This document shows positions 10,896 through 23,816 of a stretch of DNA of 23,816 bases, piece by piece. Source of the DNA: Halococcaceae archaeon (lineage in GTDB: Archaea > Halobacteriota > Halobacteria > Halobacteriales > Halalkalicoccaceae); contig SKWB01000375.1 in the NCBI GenBank assembly GCA_007129135.1, positions 1 to 23,816 of the forward strand, given 5' to 3'. A program made the position numbers and the translations under genes. How positions within the stretch are numbered: the stretch's first letter is position 1; the number at the start of each line of letters is the position of its first letter. The notes beneath the pieces are model-generated. The model did no database searches. It was given only the letters and a program-made list of their open reading frames with translations, and was not told the DNA's origin.

Positions 10896-12743
10896 TCAGT
10901 CCGCCGGCAGGTCGAGCCGCGAGAGCGTCTCTTCGGTCGGTTCTCCCTCGCTATCCCACCCGCGGAACGCGTAGTACTCCTCACGCATCCGCTCAAGCTC
11001 CTCGGGCGGGCAGTACATCCCCTCGCTCGGGCCGTCCGGGATCGGCTCGTGCGTGACCCGGTGGGGGAGCGTGTCCGTCTCGCGGCCCGCGACCCCGCGT
11101 TCGAGGTTGATCAGCCGCTCGAGCGTGTAGACCCGCTCGCCGATCTCCTCTACCTCCTCGACCGAGAGCTCCCACCCGAGCGCGAGGTTCACTGCATCCC
11201 TGTAGTTCTCGTTGACGTGGACGCCCCACCCGCCCTCGCTGACGAACCGACACTGGGTGAGCGAGTCGCCGAGCGCCGTGAAGTGCTGCGACCGCGCGGC
11301 GAACTCCGCGGTCCCCTCCGTCGTCTCGTCGTACTCCCCGCGGTACTGACGGGTCGGGCGGGTGTCGTGGTGCGAGCCGCCGCGGTTCGAGGTGGCGTAG
11401 CCGATGCTCATCCCCTTGAGACCTCTGGGAGAGTGGGCGGCGAACTCCAGGCCCATCCGGCCGTGGACGAACTCCTCCGACTCCTCTCCCAGCTCCTCCG
11501 AGAGCCGGAACGAACCCTCCGCGATTGCGTCGCCGATCCCCTCGCGGTGGGCGGTCTCCCTCGCCAGCTCGACCAGCCCGTCCGCATCGCCGAACTCCAG
11601 GTGCGGCGAGTCCTCCTCCCCGAGCAGCCCCTCCTCGTGGCACTCGCGGGCGAACGCGACCGTGACCCCCCAGCTGATCGTGTCCATCCCCAGGCGATCG
11701 CAGAGGTCGTTCGCCTTCATCACCCGTTTGATGTCGTAGACCTCCTGCATCGTCGTCGTCGCGAAGAGGCTCTCGAACTCCGGGATCTTCGCCTCCGTGA
11801 TCCCCTCGCTCTCGACGCTCACGTGTTTCCCACACCGGACCGCACAGGCCGCACAGGTGGTGTCCTCCGTGACGTACTCCTCCTTGAGCGTCTCGCCGGA
11901 GACCGCCTCCGCGTCCGCGTCCTCGGCCTGCTCGGACTGGTTGTTCCTGGTGCCTAGCTTCCCCATCTCGTTGATCGGGTTCACCAGTCCGGCGGTCCCG
12001 TGGGTCTGGAGCATCTGCGTCTCGTCCATCAGCCGCCCCATCTGCCCGGTCGTGAGCTCTCGGAACTCGCTCTCCGAGGCGACCTCCGGCTCGAACGAGC
12101 CCTCCCGGATCGCGAGCGCCTTCACGTTCTTCGATCCCATCACGGCGCCCGCACCGCCGCGTCCGGCGACGCCCTCCCTGTCCCGGCCCTGGTGCAACAG
12201 ACAGGCGTAGCGGACGAGGTTCTCGCCCGCCGGCCCGGCGGCGATCACGTGCGTCGAGTGGCCGACGCCCTCCTCCTCGCGGATCCCCTCGCAGGTCGCG
12301 TAGGTGTCCTCGCCGGCGAACCGCTCCGCGTCCTCGATCCGAGCACCCTCCTCGTCGACGACGACGTACGAGAGCTCCTCGGCCCGCCCGTGGAGCACCA
12401 CCACGTCGAAGCCGGCCGTCTTCTGGGCCTGCGGGAAGGTGCCCCCGAACGTGCTGTCGAAGAAGCCGTTGGTCATCGGGCTCACGAAGCCGACGACCCC
12501 GCGGCTGGTCGACTGAAACGGCGTGGCCGTCATCGGGCCGACCGCGAACGCGAGGACGTTCTCCGGGTCGAACGGCCCGGCGTCGGAGGGGACGTGGTCG
12601 TGGACGAGCTTCGCGGCGAAGCCGTTCCCCCCGAGGAGTCGTCGCGCGTCGACCGGATCGATCGCCTCGCGCTCTGTCTCGCCGGTAGCGAGGTGGACGT
12701 GCAGTATCTCGCCGCCGTAGGCGGGCGGAAGGTCGTCTGACAT
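10896..12743 (-). CDS. Aldehyde:ferredoxin oxidoreductase (tungsten pterin family)
   Basis: A 615-residue protein of full family length. This family oxidises aldehydes to carboxylic acids with ferredoxin as electron acceptor, using a bis-pyranopterin tungsten (or molybdenum) cofactor and one [4Fe-4S] cluster. Cluster ligands are visible as C297-x2-C300-x3-C304 (TTCAACAVRCGKH) and C498 (SLTQCRF), in the same spacing as the Pyrococcus enzyme. Typical blocks include AAGPAGENLVRYACLLHQ, GAVMGSKNVKALAI, HGTAGLVNPINEMGKLGTRN, CDRLGMDTISWG and AHREGIGDAIAEGS. The start at MSDDLPPA is chosen over an upstream ATG at 12770. The enzyme is cytosolic, and the aldehyde substrate is not evident. Confidence 0.93.
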   Translation of the reverse strand: MSDDLPPAYGGEILHVHLATGETEREAIDPVDARRLLGGNGFAAKLVHDHVPSDAGPFDPENVLAFAVGPMTATPFQSTSRGVVGFVSPMTNGFFDSTFGGTFPQAQKTAGFDVVVLHGRAEELSYVVVDEEGARIEDAERFAGEDTYATCEGIREEEGVGHSTHVIAAGPAGENLVRYACLLHQGRDREGVAGRGGAGAVMGSKNVKALAIREGSFEPEVASESEFRELTTGQMGRLMDETQMLQTHGTAGLVNPINEMGKLGTRNNQSEQAEDADAEAVSGETLKEEYVTEDTTCAACAVRCGKHVSVESEGITEAKIPEFESLFATTTMQEVYDIKRVMKANDLCDRLGMDTISWGVTVAFARECHEEGLLGEEDSPHLEFGDADGLVELARETAHREGIGDAIAEGSFRLSEELGEESEEFVHGRMGLEFAAHSPRGLKGMSIGYATSNRGGSHHDTRPTRQYRGEYDETTEGTAEFAARSQHFTALGDSLTQCRFVSEGGWGVHVNENYRDAVNLALGWELSVEEVEEIGERVYTLERLINLERGVAGRETDTLPHRVTHEPIPDGPSEGMYCPPEELERMREEYYAFRGWDSEGEPTEETLSRLDLPAD

Positions 12744-12840
12744 ACCTTCTCGCAGGAGGGTCGGTGACAAGGAAGTTCCGCTCGCAGGACCTCGACGTGC
12801 ACCAGGGCCTGCGACTCCGATCCGAGCTACTCTCCAGCCA

Positions 12841-12867
12841 CGAAACGTTTATTCGCGCGTTCGAACG
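12841..12867 (+). promoter_or_regulatory. BRE/TATA promoter with palindrome for the first Gfo/Idh gene
   Basis: CGAAA (12841-12845) resembles a BRE. It merges into GTTTATT (12847-12853), whose centre is 27 nt before the ATG at 12877. AAACGTTT (12843-12850) and CGTTCGAACG (12858-12867) are perfect palindromes. The second lies between TATA and the predicted start site, where a repressor could act. Confidence 0.55.
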
Positions 12868-12876
12868 TGGTTGTCC

Positions 12877-13839
12877 ATGCGAATCGGGATAGCCGGAGCC
12901 GGGTTCATGGCCGAGACACATCTCGCGGCGTACGCCGAGATGGACGTGGAGGTAGTCGGCGTCGCCGCACCGAGCGATCCGAGACGGTTCGTCGACGAAC
13001 ACGGCCTCGACGCGACACCCTACACGGACGTCGCGAGCATGTGCGCGAACGAGGGGATCGACGCGCTCGACGTCTGTACGCCGACGCACACGCACGTCGA
13101 CCTCGTTCGGTGTGCTGTCGAGGCTGAGGCCGCCGTCTTCGTGGAGAAGCCGATCGCGAGCACCCTCGACGGGGCGCGTGAGATCGCCGACGCGGTCGAC
13201 CGAGCGGAGCTGACGTTCATGGCCGGCCACGTCGTCCGCTTCTTTCCGGAGTACGCGACGGCGGCCGAACTCGAGGTGGGAACCCCCGGAGTCGCGCGGG
13301 CGAGACGGCTCTCGCCGTTTCCCGAGTGGGGCTCGGAGGACTGGTTCGCCGACCGGGAGAAAAGCGGCGGGATATTCGTCGACCTCGCCATCCACGACCT
13401 GGACTACCTCCGGTGGTGCTGGGGAGAGGTCGAGCGGGTCTTCGCTCGCCGCCACCGCGAACCACGCGCGGAGCACGGCTTCGTCACGCTCCGCTTCGAG
13501 TGCGGAGCCGTCGGCTACGTGGAGGCCTCCTGGGCACAGCCAGAGTCCCGAGCGTTCACGAGCGAACTCGAACTCGCGGGCGATGCGGGGCTGGTCGAGT
13601 TCTCGACCGAGAGTGACTCCCCCTACCGCCAGTGGACCGACGACGGCGAGCTGGTCGAGAGCCCCCACGCGAAGGGTGGCTACCGACGCGAACTCGAACA
13701 CTTCGTCTCGTGTGTCGAATCGGGAACCGACCCCGCAGTCGGGGTGCGCGAGGCGACCGAGTCGCTCAGACTGGCGCTCGCCGCCGAGCGATCGGCCGAC
13801 CGCGGCCGACCCATTACCGTGTCGGAGGTGGTCGCGTGA
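12877..13839 (+). CDS. Gfo/Idh/MocA-family oxidoreductase 1
   Basis: A 320-residue NAD(P)-dependent oxidoreductase of the sugar/inositol dehydrogenase type. The N-terminal Rossmann motif is RIGIAGAGFMAETH (residues 2-15). The conserved EKP that contacts the nicotinamide ribose is at 90-92 (VFVEKPIAST). The C-terminal half has the family helix FVDLAIHDLDYLRW with the catalytic-region His. The ATG at 12877 is fixed by a TATA box 27 nt upstream. The terminal codons (GAGGTGGTCGCGTGA) form the first copy of the junction repeated downstream, and the stop overlaps the GTG of a mini-ORF. Sugar or polyol specificity is not determined. Confidence 0.93.
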   Translation: MRIGIAGAGFMAETHLAAYAEMDVEVVGVAAPSDPRRFVDEHGLDATPYTDVASMCANEGIDALDVCTPTHTHVDLVRCAVEAEAAVFVEKPIASTLDGAREIADAVDRAELTFMAGHVVRFFPEYATAAELEVGTPGVARARRLSPFPEWGSEDWFADREKSGGIFVDLAIHDLDYLRWCWGEVERVFARRHREPRAEHGFVTLRFECGAVGYVEASWAQPESRAFTSELELAGDAGLVEFSTESDSPYRQWTDDGELVESPHAKGGYRRELEHFVSCVESGTDPAVGVREATESLRLALAAERSADRGRPITVSEVVA

Positions 13840-13898
13840 GCGAGCGGGGCGAGCGAACGCGGGTACACTGGAGCTCTTCTCCGGGGGTGGTCGCGTGA
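13836..13898 (+). CDS. 20-codon mini-ORF 1 in repeat
   Basis: A GTG-initiated 20-residue frame, SERGERTRV near the start and SPGVVA at the end. Its GTG overlaps the TGA of the upstream Gfo/Idh gene (GTGA), and its TGA overlaps the GTG of mini-ORF 2. Codon phase and overlaps allow translation to run from one large gene to the next. Whether a stable peptide is made is unknown. It could simply be a translational relay formed by duplication. Confidence 0.35.
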   Translation: MSERGERTRVHWSSSPGVVA

Positions 13899-13957
13899 GC
13901 GAGCGAGGCGAGCGAACGCGGGTACGCCGAGACTTGGCTTCGGGGGTGGTCGCGTGA
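13895..13957 (+). CDS. 20-codon mini-ORF 2 in repeat
   Basis: The second copy, with the same SERGERTRV start and a GVVA end but a different centre (RRDLAS instead of HWSSSP). About 14 of 20 residues equal mini-ORF 1. Its TGA overlaps the GTG start of the second Gfo/Idh gene at 13954. Same caveats as mini-ORF 1. Confidence 0.35.
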   Translation: MSERGERTRVRRDLASGVVA

Positions 13958-14943
13958 GTCTCGACGTCGGGGTCCTCTCGGCGGCCCACGTCCACACCGA
14001 CGGGTACGCGGCGGAGCTCTCACGACGAACCGACCTCTCGTTCGTCGGGGTCACCGACGGGGACGAAAGGCGAGGGACCACCTGTGCCGATCGGCACGGA
14101 ACCGAGTACGTGGCCGATCCGGACGAGCTGCTCGGTCGAATCGACGCGGGCGTGATCTGTGCGCCGAACGCGGACCACCGGGCGTGGATCGAACGTGCCG
14201 CCGCGGCGGGCGTTCACGTCCTCTGCGAGAAGCCGCTCGCACCGACGCTCGAGGAGGCGAGGGCGATCGTCGAGCTCTGGCGCGAGTCGGAGGTCAACGT
14301 GGGCGTGGCGATGCCGTTGCGCTTCAGCGAGGCCGCAACGCGTGCGAAGCGTGCGCTCGAGGACGGAGAGATCGGCCGGATCGGAGCGATCTCCGGGACG
14401 AACCGCGGGAAGATGCCCGGTGGCTGGTTCGTCGACCCGGAGGAAGCCGGCGGCGGTGCGGTGATGGACCACACCGTCCACATCGTCGACCTGGTCGAGC
14501 ACCTCACCGGCCGAACGGTCTCGGAGGTGTACGCCGAGATCGACACAAGGTTTCACGAGATCCCGGTGGAGGACGTCAACGTGCTCTCGATGAGCCTCTC
14601 GGACGGCACGCCCTTCCTGCTGGACGGCTCCTGGAGCAAGCCCGAGAGCTGGCACACCTGGGGCGATGCGACCGTCGAGTTCGTCGGCTCTGAGGGAGCG
14701 CTCGCGGTCGACACGACCGATCAGTCGGTCGCCCACACCGTCGCTTCGGGCCCTGAGGCCGGCGTCCACACCGTCTCCCACGCGACGGATACGTCGGCCG
14801 CCCTGATCGCGGACTTCGTCGCGAGCGTTCGGGAGGACCGCGACCCGATGACCACGCCGGAGGAGGGGGTGCGCGCGGTCGCGGTCGTCGAGGCGGCCTA
14901 CGAGTCGGCAGAGCGGGGCGAGCCCGTGGCCGTCGAGCTCTGA
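13954..14943 (+). CDS. Gfo/Idh/MocA-family oxidoreductase 2
   Basis: A 329-residue paralogue of the upstream oxidoreductase, but from a different subgroup. The nucleotide-binding opening is DVGVLSAAHVHTDGYAAEL, in which the usual GxGxxG is replaced by LSAAHVH. The EKP motif follows in VHVLCEKPLAPTLEEA. The substrate-domain pattern GGGAVMDHTVHIVDLVEHLTG is normal for the family and supplies a His. The start is the GTG within the GTGA overlap with mini-ORF 2, since the first residues align with the expected strand. It probably acts in the same pathway as the upstream enzyme. The substrate is unknown. Confidence 0.9.
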   Translation: MSLDVGVLSAAHVHTDGYAAELSRRTDLSFVGVTDGDERRGTTCADRHGTEYVADPDELLGRIDAGVICAPNADHRAWIERAAAAGVHVLCEKPLAPTLEEARAIVELWRESEVNVGVAMPLRFSEAATRAKRALEDGEIGRIGAISGTNRGKMPGGWFVDPEEAGGGAVMDHTVHIVDLVEHLTGRTVSEVYAEIDTRFHEIPVEDVNVLSMSLSDGTPFLLDGSWSKPESWHTWGDATVEFVGSEGALAVDTTDQSVAHTVASGPEAGVHTVSHATDTSAALIADFVASVREDRDPMTTPEEGVRAVAVVEAAYESAERGEPVAVEL

Positions 14944-23629: not shown

Positions 23630-23816
23630 TCAGAGCGTAAGCACAAACCCGTCGGGGAACGTAGCCGGGTCGACTCCCTCCTCGTCGGCGTCGTCGTCCG
23701 ATCCGATATCTATCGGCTCCCGGTCGTCCCCGGCCTCGTCGGTGTCGTCCGTCTCGGTGTCGCCCGTGTCGTCCGTCTCGGTGTCGCCGGTGCCGTCGTC
23801 CCCGGGTGCGTCCTCG
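23630..23816 (-). CDS. 3' end of an acidic protein gene running off the window
   Basis: Only the C-terminal ~61 codons are present, and the gene continues beyond the right edge. The visible part is a low-complexity acidic linker with a repeated GDTETDDT unit (encoded by a 24-bp tandem repeat), then REPIDIGSDDDADEEGVDPATFPDGFVLTL and a TGA stop. Such Thr/Asp-rich linkers are common in secreted or membrane haloarchaeal proteins, between an anchor and a domain. The product cannot be named from this fragment. The ending just after a beta-strand-like FVLTL is abrupt, and coding-like sequence continues in frame past the stop. Confidence 0.55.
   Translation of the reverse strand, partial: EDAPGDDGTGDTETDDTGDTETDDTDEAGDDREPIDIGSDDDADEEGVDPATFPDGFVLTL
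23742..23789 (-). repeat. 24-bp tandem repeat, two copies
   Basis: Units 23742-23765 and 23766-23789 are identical except for the last base. Translated on the minus strand, each encodes GDTETDDT. It is a coding low-complexity repeat in the edge gene. Confidence 0.85.

Follow-up and report, generated by a model that had tools for sequence, protein, structure and literature searches.

A dispersed haloarchaeal repeat at stop-start overlaps whose mini-ORF would preserve translational coupling: a probable archaeal counterpart of MIRU

A short tandem repeat between two oxidoreductase genes of a Halococcaceae archaeon belongs to a dispersed haloarchaeal element located at stop-start overlaps, whose own mini-ORF would preserve termination-reinitiation coupling between the neighbouring genes and which, with a probability of roughly 0.77 as judged from sequence, is an archaeal counterpart of the mycobacterial MIRU. 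The unit is dispersed, is placed exactly at the overlap and keeps its frame; its inner hairpin covaries, and comparable junctions occur as empty sites or with a changed number of copies.

The Gfo/Idh junction and the proposed relay

In the window, the whole stretch of 23,816 nucleotides that was analysed, a tandem repeat has been identified by TRF at 13823-13958 (period 59, 2.3 copies, 87% matches), with a score of 200 that is the highest among the 13 rows for the window; a separate short low-complexity tandem repeat with a 24-bp period (TRF score 98) is found at 23736-23798. Both genes flanking the 59-bp repeat are assigned to Gfo/Idh/MocA by Pfam, and GTGA overlaps at 13836-13839, 13895-13898 and 13954-13957 give the order gene 1, mini-ORF 1, mini-ORF 2, gene 2. 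Each mini-ORF consists of 20 codons plus a stop, or 63 nt, and the period is 59 bp because the mini-ORFs overlap by 4. The preliminary description, which had reported the repeat, its two 20-codon mini-ORFs, a GTGA at every step and a period of 63 minus 4, was accurate on each of these points. The features of the junction and its genes are as follows.

12877..13839, + strand: upstream gene, Gfo/Idh/MocA oxidoreductase, ending in GTGA (ATG start at 12877; TTG at 12871 possible too)
13824..13839, + strand: junction motif 1, Shine-Dalgarno GGAGGTG and GTGA stop-start overlap
13836..13898, + strand: mini-ORF 1, 20 codons and TGA
13857..13896, + strand: predicted stem-loop of unit 1 (from the fold, with covariation in relatives)
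13868-13873/13879-13884, + strand: predicted inner helix of unit 1
13857-13862/13891-13896 and 13864-13866/13887-13889, + strand: predicted outer helix of unit 1
13895..13957, + strand: mini-ORF 2, 20 codons and TGA
13916..13955, + strand: predicted stem-loop of unit 2 (inner helix 13927-13931/13939-13943)
13954..14943, + strand: downstream gene, Gfo/Idh/MocA oxidoreductase, with its GTG start within the last GTGA

The two units are 81% identical over 59 nt, and the central part of the mini-ORFs, noted from the start as differing, falls in the loop and stem of a hairpin that varies. The predicted stem-loop of unit 1 spans the following Shine-Dalgarno (13883-13889) together with some of the start codon, and in unit 2 the predicted outer helix involves the Shine-Dalgarno at 13942-13948 and the start of gene 2. 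When up to 3 mismatches are allowed, the junction motif GGNGGTGNTCGCRTGAGCGA is matched three times in the window, each time at the Gfo/Idh junction, as compared with 0.15 expected from shuffles; at the gathering score, no Rfam family was matched anywhere in the window. On the minus strand, a 1000-codon open frame (10993-13995) runs antisense to the gene 1 region and is probably a high-GC artefact.

The GTGA overlaps in the window, each with a Shine-Dalgarno upstream of the restart, carry the sequence feature of a termination-reinitiation pair. In the accessible parts of two Haloferax volcanii studies, ATGA/GTGA termination-reinitiation relies on an identical RTGA overlap, the Shine-Dalgarno being located within the upstream frame, but there two real genes overlap directly, whereas the haloarchaeal unit places a mini-ORF in between (PMC6728339, PMC10666635). 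As excerpted, the second of these reports that a gap of about 20 nt almost abolishes reinitiation in three H. volcanii and three E. coli pairs, and that the last 15 nt of the upstream gene suffice in the H. volcanii and/or E. coli work (PMC10666635). By this distance rule, as far as the available text gives it, the 114-nt gap between the oxidoreductase genes (13840-13953) should uncouple the pair (PMC10666635). The mini-ORFs would restore the -4 spacing at each step, and the pair would stay coupled across the gap.

In the proposed mechanism, the unit (usually 59 bp net) begins directly after an RTGA, whose RTG would open its reading frame; the 3' side of its stem-loop would hold the next Shine-Dalgarno and probably the start codon, and a new RTGA closes the unit. 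On completing gene 1, a ribosome would reinitiate on the mini-ORF and open the stem-loop in the course of translation. Termination at the following RTGA would leave the ribosome over the Shine-Dalgarno, from where it would reinitiate once more. A more far-reaching version, in which units across the order act as chainable gates, with the stem hiding the next Shine-Dalgarno and start, mini-ORF translation opening them and copy number tuning subunit ratios, can be put forward only tentatively.

Dispersal, empty sites and copy number

When the own genome was searched with a strict pattern, both window copies were recovered exactly, plus 7 places with 2-3 mismatches, as compared with 5 for a reversed control pattern; this pattern was too narrow, and models were therefore used for the unit search. 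Model R1 was built from 22 units and includes the RTGA ends. The own genome (G000) has four matches at three sites, the two other junctions with a unit being a thiolase and OB-fold gene pair (L013) and the ribosomal L18e and L13 genes (L027), both of which also carry it in relatives. Within the family, an R1 match at E<=0.01 is present in 10/10 genomes, the sole match in G002 being weak (E 9.5e-4, none at 1e-6), and G004 has up to 16 such matches, of which the weakest are possibly chance. Across the order, 150/392 genomes match at E<=1e-6, near which cut-off the matches include other repeats, most of the weak ones fetched (L225-L246) lying off junctions. The count of the unit in related genomes, which had been proposed as a check, gave a strong match in 64/392 genomes (best match E<=1e-11, counted from the table) and units at no fewer than 23 gene junctions, with copies undercounted because 12 candidates were scored per genome. 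A sample of the phylum yielded matches in 11/196 genomes, all of the same order.

An R1 search of 132 sequences gave 153 matches, of which 135 were classified; 17 of the 18 remaining were at <=37 bits and one (L020:722-797) was at 77 bits. The most frequent site is the thiolase-OB-fold junction (53/135 matches), so match counts are dominated by one kind of junction. Other host pairs, as assigned by Pfam, include aconitase-type large and small subunits, L18e-L13, ETF beta-alpha, GcvP, ATP synthase C-F, HPr and ABC ATPase-permease. In the incomplete gene table of a Natribaculum luteum plasmid, no gene is listed for the mini-ORF at the unit, and mini-ORFs may therefore be easily missed. Searches of open-access full text yielded no description of the element from haloarchaea.

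Copy number at the Gfo/Idh pair, a comparison also proposed earlier, was obtained from a search of 40 related genomes: three congeners have 2 (G000), 1 (G001) and 0 (G002) units, and where the genes occur without a unit (G002, G005, G007) they overlap directly by GTGA. A search with the gene 2 protein gave 56 loci; of the 15 haloarchaeal ones that were read, 14 start the gene within a direct RTGA overlap and one (L078) has no partner gene. The ancestral state of the pair was therefore most likely a plain overlap to which units were added. Random spacing between the two genes in relatives, which would have spoken against a chain, was not seen; the relatives read have either a direct 4-nt overlap or the chain. 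At rpl18e-rpl13, the 9 family genomes with the gene comprise four with no unit, four with one and one with two. Fifty thiolase-OB-fold junctions (the 30 best loci and 20 chosen from 80 matches) were classified by eye as 44 direct -4 or -1 overlaps, 5 with a unit and 1 degraded; a scripted check of the same 50 starts, with unit-bearing and plain junctions pooled, gave 44 at a -4 and 6 at a -1 overlap. That most relatives are without the unit was counted against the relay explanation.

Comparison of the left with the right junction flank at 69 single-unit loci gives 5.39 matching positions of 7, as compared with 4.90 when shuffled (0/5000 shuffles as high), and the 33 thiolase loci alone give 5.42 versus 5.04; the left and right start codons are identical in 59/69 loci. 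This likeness fits duplication of the junction upon a presumed insertion of the unit. In G242 (L215:936-1246), five nearly identical 59-bp units stand between the thiolase and OB-fold genes, with the junction's own letters repeated in each. The suggestion that the window repeat is a duplicated haloarchaeal junction repeat has thus been upheld, the element being dispersed and differing in copy number between congeners.

These differences also bear on another explanation, in which each unit is a reinitiation step below full yield, so that the number of units sets the ratio of downstream to upstream protein and is selected for. Comparable junctions do carry from 0 to 5 units (2/1/0 at Gfo/Idh, 0/1/2 at rpl18e-rpl13, 5 at the thiolase-OB-fold junction of G242), and some of the pairs that host units code for parts of a single complex (ETF beta/alpha, ATP synthase C/F, aconitase-type large/small, GcvP). 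However, most orthologous junctions have no unit (44/50 for thiolase), and slippage could yield tandem arrays, making selection on unit number a doubtful account.

Reading frame and stem-loop of the unit

The classified matches have an NTGA on the left in 124 of 135 cases, and 103 of them also have an RTGA on the right and a length of 50-80 nt; the 32 without RTGA at both ends or of odd length were excluded before frames were counted. A unit was assigned to the junction class when an open frame of >=50 codons or another unit lay upstream and one of >=60 codons or another unit lay downstream, its reading direction being that of its neighbours by definition of the class. This holds for 96 of the 103 full units, in 32 gene-pair clusters, some of which split one site; merging clusters with a common gene leaves 23. 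Among these 96, many of which are related by descent so that counts overstate independence, 87 have their stop precisely on the following RTGA, 7 continue in frame across the next start codon, 2 terminate no more than 8 nt from it and none has a broken chain. The translational relay envisaged from the window alone is accordingly supported as one that would preserve coupling, with the chain intact in 96/96 junction units, a role in setting the ratio of the two enzymes being possible. The unclassified match at L020:722-797 reads in frame into the next unit, and counting it would give 97 junction units and 8 run-throughs. Early stops occur in L225 and L064, outside the junction class, among the dropped matches and the 7 non-junction units; L227, within the class, resembles another repeat. 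A further unit, which has no terminal stop (L025:727-802), continues in frame into the N-terminal end of a gene resembling an oxidoreductase.

The lengths of junction units are mostly 63 nt (n=60) or 54 nt (n=19), followed by 64 (n=5), 57 and 69 (n=3 each), 65 (n=2), and 58, 60, 67 and 75 nt (n=1 each). When each merged cluster and length is counted once, 28/36 combinations are multiples of three (p 6e-8), and 16/23 merged clusters contain only multiple-of-three units (p 4e-4). In the 87 exact units, in-frame stops number 0/1599 codons, as compared with 41/1512 and 35/1512 in the other frames (p 9e-15).

Structure was examined in an alignment (A4) of 79 of 100 cores, from which odd lengths, identical rows and weak matches were left out. 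The inner hairpin is paired in 96.0% of cells, with a double change in 87 cells and slid controls at 22-49%; in alignment A5, with 95 of the 96 junction units and odd ones included, 94.3% of cells are paired. Double changes occur at 7/7 pairs of the inner hairpin, in the 79 chosen cores as well as in the 95 junction units, and one of these, from G-C to A-T, separates G001 from G000 at rpl18e-rpl13. The covariation firmly supports the inner hairpin as a real structure.

Folds of single units extend this to a longer stem through pairing of AAYGCGA with TCGCRT in the region of the next start. For this outer helix, 95 aligned 3' halves have 77.1% of cells paired, against 74.4 for shuffles (sd 0.5) and 21-56% for slides, and the base opposite the start-codon purine varies with the start codon (T/ATG 49, C/GTG 19, C/ATG 19, T/GTG 1, other 7; Fisher 6e-8), these counts being inflated by the relatedness of units. 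The RNAalifold consensus of the full set contains the inner helix and one further pair and does not include the outer helix. When eight units were folded singly, four had z -2.2 to -5.3 and one had z -1.23; the other three, namely both window units and L009, did not exceed shuffles (z -0.71, 0.07, -0.23). Pairing of the outer helix with the Shine-Dalgarno and start codon is thus likely, with moderate support.

A palindromic core could also belong to a mobile or palindromic DNA repeat of the REP or PATE kind, to which translation is irrelevant and for which the junction is only the target choice, with the stem pairs serving a DNA-level function. A model built without the Shine-Dalgarno and RTGA flanks (R2) reduces the bias from the RTGA ends of R1; it is a partial control only, because it was trained on the same units. 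R2 matches 101/392 genomes at E<=1e-5, other repeats included. Of its 68 best matches, 56 are at junction-class units, 6 are second units of chains (own listing) and 6 are other: the chain is kept via a start shifted by 3 nt in L158 and L196, L221 has a gene downstream but none that is clear upstream, L197 continues in frame, only the downstream side is present in L023, and L237 is intergenic. Forty weaker R2 matches that were fetched are mostly other dispersed intergenic repeats, at most 2 (L278, L301) being junction-like. Their similar hairpins can be taken in favour of a DNA repeat. Against it stand the frame kept at lengths of 54, 57, 60, 63, 69 and 75 nt and the in-frame run-through at 58, 64 and 67, the zero in-frame stops of the 87 exact units, and stem mismatches of G-U 29 versus A-C 14 (p 0.03), which fit an RNA strand, weakly. 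We therefore hold a role in DNA alone to be improbable.

A simple common-repeat origin was set aside in view of the same weaker core matches, and a related wider family is possible. At about position 1000 of L279, L281, L284, L285, L287, L288, L290, L293, L295 and L296, a different dispersed repeat of one genus (g6) is found, with a GCCGGCGC..GCGCCGG hairpin followed by CTGCCAGAG, off RTGA junctions in the stretches printed. Also at about position 1000, L277, L280, L282, L294, L298 and L302 carry a similar core (GCGAACGAGAGCACGG-like) and a hairpin with the stem AAGAGC..GCTCTT, which may represent the wider parent family of the junction unit.

A conserved peptide (SERxERTRV...) as the product, also raised in the preliminary description, has fared worse. 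Similar N-terminal SER-ER words do recur in many units, but the phase of the conserved 17-nt core differs among the 103 units (phase 2 in 66, phase 0 in 33, phase 1 in 2, core not found in 2), lengths and sequences vary, and the hairpin constraint accounts for much of the remaining similarity. Because the core is read in two phases, it is the nucleotide sequence and the stop register that are kept, not the peptide; the peptide thus appears free to change and the chain does not, and a peptide gene is very improbable. A purely local tandem duplication without wider meaning, suggested by the two similar copies in the window (81% identical over 59 nt), is ruled out as a full account by the dispersal of the unit to many other gene pairs in several families, and the empty site of G002 does not contain the inserted sequence.

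Relation to known systems and significance

The closest parallel to the relay element is the MIRU, a class of mycobacterial short interspersed repeats (Supply et al., 1997, given as reference 77 of PMC12548453, in its accessible part). According to the accessible text of that source, MIRUs are apparently mobile, with insertions at start codons that affect expression little, and contain an internal ORF coupled at -4 nt (PMC12548453). As far as the excerpted sources describe them, both MIRU and the haloarchaeal unit are short dispersed intergenic repeats, often in tandem and variable in copy number, with an ORF coupled at -4 nt (PMC12548453, PMC2734929). The unit is dispersed within one genome, mostly overlaps both neighbours by 4 nt, varies in copy number and, judging from empty sites, is probably inserted at an existing stop-start overlap, four features that place it with MIRU by function. 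Judged by these features, it would work like a MIRU, the likeness being one of function. It differs from MIRU, as described in the accessible texts, in its archaeal hosts and in the added covarying stem-loop over the next Shine-Dalgarno. To our knowledge, MIRUs have been described without such dyad symmetry.

Other systems share single aspects of the unit, as far as the excerpted sources go. The nfORF boosters and bicistronic designs likewise use a short ORF of irrelevant peptide, with an internal ribosome-binding site by its stop that feeds the next gene; they are synthetic, made for E. coli and placed upstream of a target gene, whereas the haloarchaeal unit is natural, repeated and inside operons (PMC13255528, in part). 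In Salmonella, the small ORF mgtQ lies between mgtC and mgtB and promotes translation of the gene that follows, its ribosome-binding region being covered by stem-loops; unlike the unit, the available account presents a single case that depends on particular codons and is not dispersed (PMC8092293). REP/RPE and PATE elements are likewise small dispersed palindromes, REPs can extend into coding regions and PATEs are described as related to IS605-type transposons, but a stop-start relay is not described in the accessible parts of these sources (PMC12306157, PMC3733652, PMC3119063).

These comparisons suggest that insertion into an operon without breaking translational coupling, as in MIRU, exists in Archaea too, where an RNA stem-loop accompanies it. 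Close relatives that carry 0, 1 or 2 units would be natural test pairs for the range of a reinitiation relay and its cost per step, and the model organism of this group already has the reporter system.
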